This document shows positions 34,525 through 41,022 of a stretch of 64,000 bases of DNA, piece by piece. Both the position numbers and the translations under genes were made by a program. How positions within the stretch are numbered: position 1 is the first letter of the stretch; every line of letters starts with the position of its first letter. Source of the stretch: Synechococcus sp. HK05 (GTDB taxonomy: Bacteria > Cyanobacteriota > Cyanobacteriia > PCC-6307 > Cyanobiaceae); the NCBI RefSeq assembly GCF_019104765.1, contig NZ_JAHRXJ010000009.1, forward strand, positions 62,001-126,000. Direction: 5' to 3'. The notes under the pieces were generated by a model. It searched no databases. It saw only the letters and a program-made list of their open reading frames with translations, and had not been told where the DNA came from.

Positions 34525-34971
34525 ATGGTTTGGCGTGTTCCCTCTCCTGCAGAGCAGGGATTTGTCTTGCCCCTTGCGATCACAGGGGCGATGGTGCTGC
34601 TGCTGAGCAGCCTGTCGATGCAGGCTTTGGTTCTGCAAGCCCACCGCGCACAAGCTGCTATGCAGGCCCGTGCACAACGGGATGATCAGTTCAGCTCGGC
34701 AGCGCAGTACTGGGCTTCGCAGCTGCAGGGCCCGATGGCGTGTCTGCGCCAAGCCCCCTCTTCCGACTGGACAACGCAGGCAACAGCACTGGAGTGCCCG
34801 CCGGATCTTGATCCGCAAGCGGCACAACAGCTGGAGGTTGCGGGTGCCACGGTTCGTTTGCTGAGTTGGCAGCCCCAGGAGATCGGTGGCGTGCTCCACC
34901 TGGCGCTCAGCGGCAGCAGGGTGCAACGCCAGTTCCGCTTAGGTCGTTTCGGGATCCAGGAGCTGGGCTGA
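34525..34971 (+). CDS. PilX-like minor pilin (cassette A, gene 1)
   Basis: A 148-residue protein. A short leader ends in PAEQG, then FVLPLAITGAMVLLLSSLSM forms the pilin-type N-terminal helix. The usual Glu at +5 is replaced by Leu, a feature of PilX-type minor pilins. The rest is a small soluble domain with Cys pair MACLRQ and LECPPD. First gene of a four-gene, tightly overlapping plus-strand set. Confidence 0.7.
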   Translation: MVWRVPSPAEQGFVLPLAITGAMVLLLSSLSMQALVLQAHRAQAAMQARAQRDDQFSSAAQYWASQLQGPMACLRQAPSSDWTTQATALECPPDLDPQAAQQLEVAGATVRLLSWQPQEIGGVLHLALSGSRVQRQFRLGRFGIQELG

Positions 34972-35372
34972 TGCAACTGGTGGAAGTGATGGTGGCGGCC
35001 TCGGTGTTTGCCATGGCCACGGGGAGTTCTGTGCAGCTGTGGAGCCGCGCCGCTCTGGGCAGCCAGCAGGTGGAGATGCAGCAGCAGCAAGCCGAGCGGG
35101 TCGAGTTGGATCGTTTGCAGCTGCAGGCCCGCTGGCAGGCGGAACTCCGGCCTTCTTGTTCGGTGAGCCCTGCTCAACTGATCACCGTGGCGGAACGGGT
35201 GCCCGTTCCGCCGCAACTGCGCCGTGAGGTCGTTCCGGTTGATCAGGGTGCAGCGTTGCAGGTGCGTTGGTGGTTGGAGGCGTCGCCCGCCAACGCACGA
35301 GAACGCCTGTTCACAGCAGCTGGGTTAGGGCTTTGTGATCCCGTGGCAGCAGCCGAGGAGGTGGTGCCATGA
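34971..35372 (+). CDS. PilV-like minor pilin without leader (cassette A, gene 2)
   Basis: A 133-residue protein whose start ATG (34971) overlaps the previous stop (TGATG) and is preceded by CAGGAG. It begins MQLVEVMVAASVFAMA, which lines up exactly with the mature +1 end of a pilin (F-T-L-I-E-V), with Glu at +5 and no leader at all. The only in-frame alternative upstream is a remote TTG at 34866. The remainder has a beta-rich globular domain. If correct, this pilin would need no prepilin peptidase cut. Confidence 0.62.
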   Translation: MQLVEVMVAASVFAMATGSSVQLWSRAALGSQQVEMQQQQAERVELDRLQLQARWQAELRPSCSVSPAQLITVAERVPVPPQLRREVVPVDQGAALQVRWWLEASPANARERLFTAAGLGLCDPVAAAEEVVP

Positions 35373-35875
35373 AGGCTCCTGCACAGGCATCCTCTCGGCT
35401 GTCGTTAGCCGAGCTGTTGGTGGGCGTTGCCATTCTCGGCTTGCTGATCAGCCTTGGTTGGCGCGGTGGAACCGAAGCGCTGGCCAGGCAGCGCCTGGAT
35501 GCCGCAACGCGAAGACTCGAGCAAGGCATCGAGCGCGGGCGCGCAGAGGCTCAACAGCACGATCAAGCCTGTGGCTTGAGCTTGGTGGAGCAGGGCTGGG
35601 CACCGCCGCAGGGGGGTGGGCTGCCTGCCTGCCTACCCACCCGAGAGGAGTTGCAGGATCCCCTGGTGATGGCGATCGGTGAGGTGCAACTGAGCCATAA
35701 CTTCCCAGCGGTGCTGAGATTTAGCCGCAATGGGCTTGTGCTGGATGGCGGCACGGCTGTTCTGCAGGCCTCGGGCACCCCAGTGCAGCGCTGTTTGGTG
35801 ATGTCGCCGCCGTTGGGTATTACCCGCGTGGGCGGCTATCTCGGAGGTCAATGTGAGCCAGTTGCAGGGCTGTAG
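35369..35875 (+). CDS. FimT/GspH-like minor pilin with atypical cleavage site (cassette A, gene 3)
   Basis: A 168-residue protein overlapping the previous gene by 4 bp. The start MKAPAQASSR is followed by LSLAELLVGVAILGLLISLG, the pilin helix with Glu at +5, but position -1 is Arg and not the near-invariant Gly. The C-terminal part resembles GspH/FimT domains, with Cys residues (QACGLSL, LPACLPT, QRCLVMS, GGQCEPV). The stop falls inside the next gene. Confidence 0.65.
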   Translation: MKAPAQASSRLSLAELLVGVAILGLLISLGWRGGTEALARQRLDAATRRLEQGIERGRAEAQQHDQACGLSLVEQGWAPPQGGGLPACLPTREELQDPLVMAIGEVQLSHNFPAVLRFSRNGLVLDGGTAVLQASGTPVQRCLVMSPPLGITRVGGYLGGQCEPVAGL

Positions 35876-36440
35876 AGCACGGCAAGGGTTTTCATTGGTG
35901 GAGTTGATGCTCGCCCTCAGCTTGGGCTTGGCCTTGAGCGGTGTGATGCTGCAGGGGCTGATGGCCGAAGGCCAAAACGGCTTGCGGTTTTCACGGCTGA
36001 TGCGTGCGCGAGCTGTTCAGCGCCGCACGTTGGACTTGATCCAACGCGATTTGGCACAGGCCACCATGGCGAGCGTTGATCCCAGCGCTGAATCTGCCGC
36101 CTGCGGGTTGTCAGGGCGAAGGGCGGTGCTTCACCTCAAAACAGCTGCTGGGTTGATTACCTATTCGATGGGGGCTCCACCCAGTCGGATTTGGCGTGGC
36201 GCGGTGCTTCTGCGCTGCGGGCCTGCCTATGGATTGGATGGATGGCTCCAAGCCGGGACGGCACCTGTACAGCGTGTGGTGCTCGACGCCTTGGTGGCTG
36301 GCGAGACGGGTGTGGCGATTAATCGCGATTCGAGTTCAGGTGTGGCCACGATCTCGCTGCATCAAGCGTTCTTGAACCCCACGGGTCGCACCCAGCAGAT
36401 CTCAACCAGCCGGATTGTTCCGGGAACGATCTTCCAATGA
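35853..36440 (+). CDS. PilW-like minor pilin (cassette A, gene 4)
   Basis: A 195-residue protein starting at GTG 35853, 23 bp inside the previous gene. The leader MSQLQGCRARQG is a proper type IV leader, followed by FSLVELMLALSLGLALSGV with Glu at +5. The large C-terminal domain suits a PilW-type minor pilin. Its last 39 bp overlap the convergent lipoprotein gene. Likely co-transcribed with the three genes before it. Confidence 0.75.
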   Translation: MSQLQGCRARQGFSLVELMLALSLGLALSGVMLQGLMAEGQNGLRFSRLMRARAVQRRTLDLIQRDLAQATMASVDPSAESAACGLSGRRAVLHLKTAAGLITYSMGAPPSRIWRGAVLLRCGPAYGLDGWLQAGTAPVQRVVLDALVAGETGVAINRDSSSGVATISLHQAFLNPTGRTQQISTSRIVPGTIFQ

Positions 36441-36985: not shown

Positions 36986-37549
36986 TTATGGGGTGGGTGT
37001 GCTGTCGATGATGCGGCTTCTGGCCTGGGCTGAACTTGATTTTCCTTCGCTGGAGAAGCTGAAGCCGGATGGATCGAGGATATTGAGCTGATAGGCAACA
37101 TTGCGTCCGTCAGCTGTGGATGGGGAAAAGGCGCTCACGTTGCTGGCCACGGTATCGGTGCTGGTTGCGCCATTGAGGATCAACGAGCCGTTGGCACTAT
37201 CGATTGTTGGCCCTGTGCGGATCAGATTCGTACCTTGGAGGCTGTAGGTGATCGTGGGGGATGTTGCTTCTCCGCAGGGCGGCAGGGTGAGAGTCAGCGT
37301 GCTACCGGATGCGTTACTGCAAGCGGATTCCTGGATTTCTTGCTCCAACAGAAATTGAACCCGCGTCCACACATCCTGAGCACGCAGCTTGCCCTCGATC
37401 CGTGTGCTGGTTCGTACATGCGCCAAGATGAGCTCAGCGGCGCTCACCAGCAAGATGCCACCAATCACCGACACAATCAAGAGTTCCGGCAGCGTGAAGC
37501 CGCGCGCTGCAGGTCTGCTGATGTTGTTAGAAACGTTCCTGCTCACCAC
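36986..37549 (-). CDS. PilW-like minor pilin (cassette B)
   Basis: A 187-residue protein from the GTG at 37549, which is preceded by GAGGAG six bases upstream. A longer form from an ATG at 37582 is possible. The leader ends RPAARG, then FTLPELLIVSVIGGILLVSA forms the pilin helix with Glu at +5. The soluble domain has a Cys pair (QESACSN, PPCGEAT). It overlaps the previous gene by 23 bp. Base composition is more AT-rich than the core genes. Confidence 0.75.
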   Translation of the reverse strand: MVSRNVSNNISRPAARGFTLPELLIVSVIGGILLVSAAELILAHVRTSTRIEGKLRAQDVWTRVQFLLEQEIQESACSNASGSTLTLTLPPCGEATSPTITYSLQGTNLIRTGPTIDSANGSLILNGATSTDTVASNVSAFSPSTADGRNVAYQLNILDPSGFSFSSEGKSSSAQARSRIIDSTPTP

Positions 37550-38069
37550 ATTGGTCTCCTCGACTGATGGTGATGTTGCCAATCAGGCCTTTGATGGCAA
37601 TGCATCGTGTTGGCCCGTTGGGCAGCTTCTTGACCACCACATTAATCACGGAATTGCTTAATGGGCTTACGGTGCCGCGGGGTGTGAACTGAATGGTTGG
37701 ACTGGTGATTGAAAAGCTTGAGCTGGGTGAGATGCTGGCCACGTCGTCACCTCTCAGTGGATTGCTCGTGAGGCACGTTGCGGGGCTTGTGATCTGCGTG
37801 GTTGCATTCGTGGTGGTTGCGCTGGCTACTAAGGCGTCACCGCTCACGGATGAACTGATGGAAACGGTGCATCCAGCACCTAAGAGAGCACTTTTTCTCA
37901 CTTGTTCCAGCCAGCCTGCTAGCGAGATGGTGAGTGCGTTGACTTCCTCACGATTCCTTTGTTGCAGATTAATATCAATGCCTACAAATGTGAGGATTCC
38001 GAGAATCACGACGACGCTCAGCAGCTCGGTTAGACTGAAGCCCCTGGCTTGAGGATTTAGGGGCACCAT
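37527..38069 (-). CDS. FimT/GspH-like minor pilin (cassette B)
   Basis: A 180-residue protein from the ATG at 38069, 13 bp inside the previous gene. MVPLNPQARG is the leader and FSLTELLSVVVILGILTFVG the pilin helix with Glu at +5. Thr/Ser-rich middle and Cys residues (AGCTVSI, ATCLTSN, TRCIAIK, DQCGEQE) point to an extracellular globular domain. The frame extends 19 codons further upstream. Confidence 0.77.
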   Translation of the reverse strand: MVPLNPQARGFSLTELLSVVVILGILTFVGIDINLQQRNREEVNALTISLAGWLEQVRKSALLGAGCTVSISSSVSGDALVASATTTNATTQITSPATCLTSNPLRGDDVASISPSSSFSITSPTIQFTPRGTVSPLSNSVINVVVKKLPNGPTRCIAIKGLIGNITISRGDQCGEQERF

Positions 38070-38620
38070 GACGCGACTGTTGGCATCAGAGTGATTTGCC
38101 TTAAGGTAATAGAATCTTTTTTCCATTCAATTGAGTACAGGTGTGGTGGGGTATTGTTCGTATTGATAGCTGCAGGAATCTTCGCGGATCGGGTAATGTT
38201 GAGTTCGTTAAGGCGTGGGGCAAGGGCGAGGTTGTTGATCGCATCTACAAGTTTCGGGCCAAATCCACTGCCGGTTCCGTCAGGGCCACAGATAGCAGAT
38301 AAGCCATTGGGGTCTCCAGGGATGTACTCGTTCTCGTTGGGATAAGTGATTCCGCTTGAGCAGTTGTTTGCATCTGTGCAGCTGAATTTGTCGTTAATCT
38401 GAATAATCGTTGCTAAGTCGTCGCTAATTGCCGCTTGTTCGTCTTGCTTCTCCTCGCCTAGGCGGGCGTTGATGTTTGTGAAGTTGAAGAGTGTGACGGC
38501 CGCTGTGACAGATGTGAAAAGAATCACGCTCGCCACTAAGACTTCAACGAGGCTAAATCCAGATCCTTCTAGCGGGCTAGATCTGCGAGAACTTGTGATG
38601 TCAATAGCTGCGCTAGGCAT
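38057..38620 (-). CDS. PilV-like minor pilin (cassette B)
   Basis: A 187-residue protein. Leader ends SPLEGSG, then FSLVEVLVASVILFTSVTAA with Glu at +5, typical of PilV/PilE-class minor pilins. The C-terminal part has Cys residues (KFSCTDANNCSS, SAICGPD, ASWCP) that may form disulfides. It starts 10 bp after the stop of the large PilX-like gene and overlaps the FimT-like gene, so all are in one transcript. Confidence 0.75.
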   Translation of the reverse strand: MPSAAIDITSSRRSSPLEGSGFSLVEVLVASVILFTSVTAAVTLFNFTNINARLGEEKQDEQAAISDDLATIIQINDKFSCTDANNCSSGITYPNENEYIPGDPNGLSAICGPDGTGSGFGPKLVDAINNLALAPRLNELNITRSAKIPAAINTNNTPPHLYSIEWKKDSITLRQITLMPTVASWCP

Positions 38621-38630
38621 AAAACATCAA

Positions 38631-40427
38631 CTACCCTCCAAGCCAGCGCTGCTTATTTGTGCTTCGTAAAACAAAGTCGTAGAATAATGGCTCTATCTCT
38701 CCAGTGTTACTGGTCAGTCCCATAAGCTCAAAGACGTCTGTGATTCCGCTGCTGGGAATGATCCAGGTTGGATTTCCTGTTGAAGCCAGGTTGTTCGTCC
38801 ATAAAACGCCGGTAAAAGTCGTGTCGCCTACAAGACTAACAGTCGCAGTGGGAAAATAAATGAAAAGGTTGGTGGCGTCGACGGTCCCTTTGATCGTGAG
38901 CTCTTGTGTTGGCTCTTGGCGTGTATTGCTGCCAAAGAGAGATAAATCCGTGATATTTGTTGATGGAGTGCAGTCGCCAGTTGCGCTAATGCTCGTGCAA
39001 TTGGATATCGTTGTATTTCCTGTACCATCGATAACCTCTCCGCTGTCTTCAAAGTAAAGCCTGACCTTTGCGTCGCCAGTCAAAAACTTAATGTCACTAT
39101 TCTTGTTGGATCCTGCGGACAGAGGAGCTCCGCCTATATTGCAGTGGACTTCTTCGTTATTGGTGGATCTTTTGCAATAGTCTGGAAGGATATTTGCGGA
39201 AAAGTCGTAGACTACGCTTTTGTTGCTTCCAGAGCCGCATTCTTTTTTGAATGCTGTACTGTCACAGGTGTCTGTTGTGATGTTGGTGTCGTCATTGAAG
39301 TAGCCTTTAGGTGGGTTTGCTGTTGAGCATGGATTTTCTTGATAAATTGAAAGTCCTCCTTTGGGGTTGCAGAATGTATAGGCTTTGGGGAGCTCTGTGT
39401 CGACTATGGCGACGCTAATGTCGGGATCTTTGTTGTTAATAGCGCATCCTGCTGTGTTGCTGGCTAGGCAGTAAATTGGATTGACTGGTGTCCCGATTTC
39501 ATCTTCAACGTCGGTTGCCCTGCCCTTGACTGTAACGCTGCCTGTGTTTGTCCCCTCTGCTCCTGCGAGCAGTCCAAGGCCAAGCTGAGTCAGGCATACA
39601 GTTGTTCCTTGGAGCTCTCCAACTGTTTGAACGGCGTAATCAATGTTTCCGTGCTTTCCTCCAAAGGGGACCCCGCAGCACTTGGGAGTGAGTTCGTATG
39701 TGCGCTCTAAAATAACCGAGGAGATCACTTGACCATTTTGATATGACTGGCCTTCAACTTGAATGGTGACACTGCCAACGCCAGAAGGGTTTGCTGCTCG
39801 ATCCCTCCACACACTAAGGTATCGGTCTTTTTCATTGATTTCTCCGTCACCATTGATGTCCCTCTGATTGTCCCCAATTGCCCCTCCATACGGCTGTCTG
39901 GTGATGCGTATCAGTCGGAAGGAGCGATTTGCAGTGCCCTGCACTGACGAAATGGTGCCGTTGCTGCTGATGTACCACTTGCCGTAGGTTGTGCTGGCAG
40001 CGTTGTTTGGGTCTAGGAGGCTGTAGTCAGGAATTTCGTTGGCGGGAGGTGGAGACTTTGTGACAATGCAAGGGTTTTGCCTGAGCTCAAGAATCTTGAG
40101 TGAATTATTTTTATTCTCCCATAGATCGCCGCTGTTGGCGTCCTGATAGTTTGGGTCTGTGTCGACGCCGTTGTTGCGAACAGTGTTGAGCCATCGATTC
40201 TGCGGCCTATTGAGTTCGGATGCAATCGTATTCATGCCTGTTTCGGCTGCGCTCCTTGCTGCCCAACTCCTGTTCTGAAAAGCGCTGCCAAAAAGGCCCC
40301 AGCTAGACCTGCTAGCTAGGGCTAAGCTTCCAGCTAAGAGCAGGAATCCTGCGAGTACGGAGATTGGTAATGAAAATCCCTCGCAGGCTCTTCCTCTCGT
40401 GGCGAATCTCGCTGATTGGTCTTTCAT
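38631..40427 (-). CDS. Large Cys-rich PilX-like protein with EF-hand loop (cassette B)
   Basis: A 598-residue protein. The leader ends RACEG, then FSLPISVLAGFLLLAGSLAL, a pilin-like helix lacking Glu at +5 as in PilX. The large extracellular part holds 14 Cys, mostly beyond residue 250, and a textbook 12-residue Ca2+ loop at 190-201 (D190-N192-D194-G195-I197-D201). A tip-adhesin or pilus-cap role is a reasonable inference, not shown. It is markedly AT-richer than the neighbouring core genes. Confidence 0.72.
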   Translation of the reverse strand: MKDQSARFATRGRACEGFSLPISVLAGFLLLAGSLALASRSSWGLFGSAFQNRSWAARSAAETGMNTIASELNRPQNRWLNTVRNNGVDTDPNYQDANSGDLWENKNNSLKILELRQNPCIVTKSPPPANEIPDYSLLDPNNAASTTYGKWYISSNGTISSVQGTANRSFRLIRITRQPYGGAIGDNQRDINGDGEINEKDRYLSVWRDRAANPSGVGSVTIQVEGQSYQNGQVISSVILERTYELTPKCCGVPFGGKHGNIDYAVQTVGELQGTTVCLTQLGLGLLAGAEGTNTGSVTVKGRATDVEDEIGTPVNPIYCLASNTAGCAINNKDPDISVAIVDTELPKAYTFCNPKGGLSIYQENPCSTANPPKGYFNDDTNITTDTCDSTAFKKECGSGSNKSVVYDFSANILPDYCKRSTNNEEVHCNIGGAPLSAGSNKNSDIKFLTGDAKVRLYFEDSGEVIDGTGNTTISNCTSISATGDCTPSTNITDLSLFGSNTRQEPTQELTIKGTVDATNLFIYFPTATVSLVGDTTFTGVLWTNNLASTGNPTWIIPSSGITDVFELMGLTSNTGEIEPLFYDFVLRSTNKQRWLGG

Positions 40428-40467
40428 TGATGATCCGCGCTCTAGTTGGAAACGCTTTTGCTGCTAA

Positions 40468-40875
40468 TTAGGAGCCAGCTCGGGTTGTCATCTCTACACT
40501 TCCATCGGTGTTGACGATTGCTACTGCAGTCGAATCGTCTACGGTGGCTGTGTAGGAGGTTCCAGCAGCGCAGGTGGCTGGACTTACGCCTTCACCAGGG
40601 GCAAACTGGTCTTCATCTTGGGTCACGAGTAGTGCTGCGCATGCTTTTGCTGCACCCATTGCAGCCGAATTGGCAGCGTTATCACGGGCACGCTGGGCTT
40701 GCGTCAAGTAGGCCGGCACGCCCACTGCCGATAGAATGCCAAGGATCACAACCACCACCAAGAGTTCAACCAGGGTGAACCCCTTTTGGTGATCACTGGC
40801 TAGTTTTTTGATAGTTCTTGTCTTTTTGTGAAGAAGCGTCTGCGCTAAAGATGATCTGAAGGGTGAGCTTGTCAT
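40468..40875 (-). CDS. Type IV pilin, PilA-like
   Basis: A 135-residue prepilin from the ATG at 40875, preceded by GGAGAGG. The long basic leader ends ASDHQKG; mature FTLVELLVVVVILGILSAVG has Glu at +5. The mature part is ~103 residues with a Cys pair (KACAALL and PATCAAG) forming the usual disulfide-bonded end. It heads the minus-strand cassette, 40 bp before the large PilX-like gene. The divergent sensor kinase starts 148 bp away. An ATG eight codons upstream is also possible. Confidence 0.85.
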   Translation of the reverse strand: MTSSPFRSSLAQTLLHKKTRTIKKLASDHQKGFTLVELLVVVVILGILSAVGVPAYLTQAQRARDNAANSAAMGAAKACAALLVTQDEDQFAPGEGVSPATCAAGTSYTATVDDSTAVAIVNTDGSVEMTTRAGS

Positions 40876-41022
40876 GGGATGGATGTCCTCTCCGTTCATT
40901 CTGGCTTTTCGCTAGGGAGTTGGGCATGAGAAATTCTTGCTGGTTTCCTGAGAGTTCCCTTATGGCTGCTTAAAGATGCCGCTCTGCCTAGGATTTTCCT
41001 AGAGGTCATACGCCTCGCATCT

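Follow-up and report, generated by a model that had tools for sequence, protein, structure and literature searches.

The sections of Pelicic 2023 (PMC10191384) that deal with prepilins say that a class III signal peptide is always present and that Gly or Ala is invariably the last residue of its leader, and they call the role of the N-methylation of type IV pilins a mystery. The corresponding sections of Berry and Pelicic 2015 (PMC4471445) state that the bacterial leader is invariable, ends in Gly and has a last residue that is critical for cleavage. For Synechococcus sp. WH7803, which belongs to the same family as the strain studied here and likewise carries a type IV pilin cluster, the relevant part of Aguilo-Ferretjans et al. 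(PMC7994388) reports six pilin-like proteins, all with GFTLxE; the same part places genes of unknown function in the cluster and does not mention a leaderless pilin. Nor is a leaderless pilin described in the accessible parts of PMC4471445, PMC10191384, PMC12288463, PMC7994388 and PMC8546353, and none was found in the open-access literature searched, absence there not being proof.

We turn to a pilin gene that departs from this pattern. The window, which is the whole stretch of 64,000 nucleotides from Synechococcus sp. HK05 that we analyze, contains at 34971..35372 of the forward strand a gene for a leaderless protein of 133 aa, which we list as an I-type (GspI/PilV-like) minor pilin. The ATG at 34971-34973 opens the protein (MQLVEVMVAASVFAMA...), the stop codon ends at 35372, and the translation of 34971-35372 on the plus strand (MQLVEVMVAASVFAMATGSSVQLW...) begins at the mature +1 position. 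The mature N-terminus reads M1 Q2 L3 V4 E5, in the register of the F-T/S-L-x-E pilins. The hydrophobic N-terminal helix and the Glu5 of a mature type IV pilin are both present, and the leader ending in Gly or Ala that a peptidase cuts from class III signal peptide proteins is missing.

The original prediction placed the start codon exactly at mature +1 with Glu5 in the pilin register, overlapping the upstream stop and with a remote TTG as the only other in-frame start, and all of this is borne out. The stop of the preceding PilX-like gene (TGA, 34969-34971) and the ATG share an A in a TGATG overlap (34969..34973, plus strand), and a Shine-Dalgarno-like AGGAG (34958..34962, plus strand) lies 8 nt 5' of the ATG. 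This overlap probably couples the PilX-like and I-type genes by termination and reinitiation. The TTG (34866..34868, plus strand), 35 codons before the ATG and not conserved, is the sole in-frame ATG, GTG or TTG between the preceding stop and the ATG of the window gene. We judge it to be unused: the 34 codons read from there follow the coding DNA of the PilX-like gene, out of frame.

The neighboring genes, all on the plus strand, are those of a minor pilin operon. The upstream gene (34525..34971) encodes a PilX/GspK-like minor pilin with the canonical leader EQG/FVLPLA (the slash marks the end of the leader) and without Glu5, as in PilX/GspK. Downstream are a GspH/FimT-like minor pilin (35369..35875; Pfam GspH, E 4e-5) with the leader SSR/LSLAEL, and a GspJ/PilW-like minor pilin (35853..36440; N_methyl, E 5e-5) with the canonical RQG/FSLVEL. 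The order is therefore K-I-H-J, with the K-, H- and J-type neighbors expected of a GspI/PilV gene. The Arg at -1 of the GspH-like pilin is the sole case among the H-like neighbors seen and, if real, PilD should not cut there. The components of a type IV pilus system are present in the genome, with one prepilin peptidase, one PilC, three PilB/T-type ATPase matches and one secretin. The minus strand carries another, divergent set of pilins whose leaders are canonical (36986-40899); among its members are a PilX-like protein of 598 aa (38631-40427) and a PilA-like pilin (40468-40899).

The identity of the protein is approached by family match, fold and operon. Among 51 family members, NCBIfam gspI hits 5 (best E 2.6e-5) and gspJ hits 8 (best E 0.011), the window protein being matched by neither; against N_methyl it reaches only E 0.34. 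An AlphaFold model from a 7-row alignment (mean pLDDT 77, with residues 1-21 at low confidence) shows one long helix (residues 18-58), a second, short one and a sheet of three strands. A Foldseek search of this model against the PDB gives no match at E<=0.001, and a PDB sequence search with the family profile finds no pilin. VIA-align superimposes the model on EpsI with Z 5.4 (2.6 A over 72) and on GspI with Z 5.1 (2.7 A over 70), in near-identical numbering (model 30/31-118/116 on chain 30/31-113/114); the two rank among the top rows, but both scores are weak, and the unrelated phage T4 gp25 outscores them (Z 6.8). Each of the three lines is weak alone, and their combination favors an I-type minor pilin.

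Does the start at +1 recur in related pilins? The pilin is found in 15 of 25 genomes of the window's genus; 15 of the first 16 matches inspected have ATG exactly at +1, and the other one, L013, has a stop codon (TGA) at +1 and GTG at +3, its start being shifted deeper into the mature sequence. Of 400 family genomes searched with a 16-row profile, 153 have matches, in 20 of 59 genera. A 51-row profile matches 148 of 399 genomes at the order level, with all listed matches in the same genus or family, and in 291 genomes of the class it gives only weak matches outside the family (best E 7e-4); there is therefore no informative outgroup for the leaderless pilin. The set that we read comprises 162 loci from 159 genomes of the family Cyanobiaceae, made up of the listed family-search matches and 12 from the order and class searches (L213 is not among them, and L215 is a repeat of L061). 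The profile rows are all leaderless, yet relatives with Phe at +1 are recovered too, so the search is not blind to them. Within the window strain's own genome, a search for a second, leader-bearing copy returns only a chance-level match (E 0.019). Diverged copies of the leaderless pilin, L012 and L017, lie some 2.9 kb from each other on a single contig (G004:C448).

A start codon stands at mature +1 in 146 of the 162 loci (138 ATG, 7 GTG, 1 TTG), spanning 17 genera, and the codon there is always a start codon and never another Val, Leu, Ile or Met-like codon. The remaining 16 loci have Phe (14), TGA (L013) or TGT (L061) at +1; in L061/L215 (G071), the one with TGT, the start of the I-type gene looks frameshifted. 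The comparison of starts in homologues thus agrees with the window gene, and because the position of the start is conserved across the homologous loci, the sequencing error at 34960-34975 that had been raised as a possible cause is ruled out. Residue 2 of the 146 leaderless pilins is N in 54, T in 41, S in 38, Q in 9, H in 3 and P in 1, and residue 5 is acidic throughout (E in 143, D in 3). A polar residue 2 (145/146) together with an acidic residue 5 is what the N-terminus of a functional mature pilin would show. The leaderless pilin also has conserved C63/C122, D47, W55 and R110. An SD-like 4-mer is present in 71 of the 146 leaderless loci.

That the window pilin has no prepilin leader is supported further by the DNA upstream, since many homologous loci could not encode a leader there. 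In 143 of the 146 loci a stop within the stretch closes the upstream frame, and in 86 of these 143 that frame has no ATG, GTG or TTG before +1. A leader is formally encodable, with a start 3-40 codons upstream and Gly or Ala at -1, in only five of the 146 (L053, L055, L110, L151, L156). A leader might nevertheless begin at an unrecognized upstream codon other than ATG, GTG or TTG: many loci have tens of open codons upstream in this frame, and 78 of 146 have Ala or Gly at its -1 position. The residues upstream are, however, dictated by the other frame of the PilX-like gene, and nothing would require an internal residue at +1 always to be a start codon. Moreover, 17 of the 146 loci, from four genera (g1, g29, g30, g34), have at most 8 open codons upstream; L017 has 5, and in L016 an in-frame TAG directly abuts the ATG. 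We regard such a hidden leader as barely credible for the family. For the short-frame loci it is refuted.

The overlap itself admits another reading, in which frameshifting would produce the pilin as a PilX-I fusion. Of the 146 loci, 115 have an ATGA overlap between the upstream stop and the start and 28 a TGATG overlap, so that 143 share the same relative frame, which a -1 shift would reach, and some I-like pilins, those of g24/g44/g32, are without a clear start. Against this, the other three leaderless loci have no overlap at all (offsets -3, -33 and -37), a conserved slippery heptamer is not seen on inspection by eye, and the I-type domain of a fusion would be expected to end up on the wrong side of the membrane. 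We therefore hold a fusion product to be very unlikely, and return to the reading in which translation starts at +1.

The relatives with Phe at +1 bear on the history of the leader. A canonical leader with an unambiguous start codon occurs only in genus g9 (8 loci), where it ends ...AG/F or GG/F, Phe is at +1, and the PilX-like stop lies at the beginning of the leader (L150 and L145 inspected). Homologues with a same-frame leader, which the original prediction had asked about, thus exist in these eight loci, but the g9 leader is not hidden in the window gene. Because +1 is Phe and the PilX-like stop lies where the leader begins and not at +1, g9 probably represents the ancestral state. Five more Phe+1 loci, in g24/g44/g32 (L205, L208, L209, L210, L211), retain G/F, and their PilX-like stop overlaps codon +3 (TTGA, CTGA, TTAA); L209, L210 and L211 have no start codon within 45 codons of the I-type +1. 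The PilX-like protein of g24 (L205, L210) is shortened to barely more than its helix. Locus L214, a weak match of a different kind with Phe at +1, likewise has no start within 45 codons. In a LepA nucleotide tree g9 branches outside the rest of the Cyanobiaceae (91/77), other nodes being weakly supported, and the LepA protein tree does not resolve the branching. The simplest account is an ancestor with a leader followed by a single early loss, further losses being possible; the most likely time of the loss is early, once the g9-like lineage had split off.

The loss does not extend to the whole operon. Neighboring genes were detected by simple patterns, and rows that these missed are counted as not found. 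Among 161 loci, the J-like neighbor has a leader in 141, is leaderless in none, is of another kind in 5 and is not found in 15; the H-like neighbor has a leader in 127, is leaderless in 19, is of another kind in 4 and is not found in 11. A PilX-like N-terminus is recognized upstream in 140 of the 146 leaderless loci, and a crude pattern puts Gly at -1 in 115 of them. PilD is present in 30 of 30 genomes searched. Since the neighbors mostly keep their leaders and PilD is present, there is no general loss of leaders. It is confined to the I-type and occasionally the H-type pilin, both of them downstream of a leader-bearing pilin and mostly coupled to it by stop and start. The 19 leaderless H-like loci are L016, five of g18, eight of g34 and five of g24/g44/g32 (L016, L113, L114, L129, L131, L134, L137, L143, L148, L153, L162, L205-L212), and apparently represent several independent losses. 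Their N-termini include MTLTELL, MSLIEQL, MTLAEQL and MSLVELL.

With the start at +1 family-wide and a leader often not encodable, the protein is likely, as far as sequences can tell, an I-type (GspI/PilV-like) minor pilin of the tip/priming complex of the type IV pilus that is made directly in its mature form. Ribosomes ending the PilX-like gene would reinitiate at the overlapping I-type start, and the hydrophobic N-terminal helix would direct the pilin to SRP/Sec and, in the absence of a charged leader, insert it in the N-in/C-out orientation. Once deformylated, Met1 (or residue 2, should Met be removed) would offer its amino group in place of the N-terminus made by PilD. The subunit would join the K-I-J-H tip complex uncleaved by PilD and probably not methylated by it either. 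Most likely the leader went early, as the stop of the PilX-like gene and the start codon moved to +1. Insertion without peptidase processing and loss of the leader on moving into the overlap, the two readings first offered for this gene, are compatible, and both fit the sequences. The scarcity of K/R in residues 1-24 (found in 7 of 146 leaderless against 10 of 14 Phe+1 pilins, related rows uncorrected for kinship) is suggestive in that it fits the positive-inside rule and an N-in topology.

Direct synthesis in the mature form meets one difficulty at residue 1. By the usual aminopeptidase rule, the initiator Met is removed when residue 2 is S, T or P. The rule predicts removal in 80 of the 146 leaderless pilins and retention in 66, the window pilin with its MQ- start being among the latter. 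Removal would leave Glu at +4; this is hard to square with a strict +5 register and so counts against the mature-form reading. The protein could instead have a pilin-like N-terminus without a role in the filament, acting in the inner membrane as a chaperone of the PilX-like protein or as its anchor. Production free of PilD would keep it out of the normal pilin pool, and the mean Kyte-Doolittle value of residues 6-23 is 1.67, versus 2.28 for the H-like and 2.13 for the J-like pilins. A mere anchor, however, would need neither the acidic residue 5 found in 146/146 nor the polar residue 2 found in 145/146, and we consider this role unlikely.

For the family as a whole, we lean towards the view that in most Cyanobiaceae one or two tip-priming subunits (the I-type, sometimes the H-type) bypass PilD through repeated loss of the leader. 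If so, entry into the filament needs neither leader cleavage nor PilD methylation. A leaderless minor pilin runs against the rule that all type IV pilins need a leader; a conserved natural example would uncouple targeting, topology, cleavage and methylation from one another, and would imply that the mature helix alone can suffice both to insert the protein and to bring it into the tip complex. Pilin finders that rely on the leader, and start-site callers, will overlook or misplace such minor pilins.

Compared with the known systems, the window pilin shares the hydrophobic mature helix and Glu5 with the pilins described as having a class III signal peptide, and differs in the leader. With GspI/PilI/PilV (EpsI, 2RET; GspI, 3CI0) it has in common an N-terminal helix of the EVxVAxxxF type, Glu5, a length of about 130 aa, an operon with K-, H- and J-like pilins, and, by weak scores, a probably similar fold with a matching residue register. 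It differs from them in that it has no leader and no Gly or Ala at -1, has its start codon at +1, is only weakly similar in sequence, and belongs to a family with a conserved Cys63/Cys122 pair.
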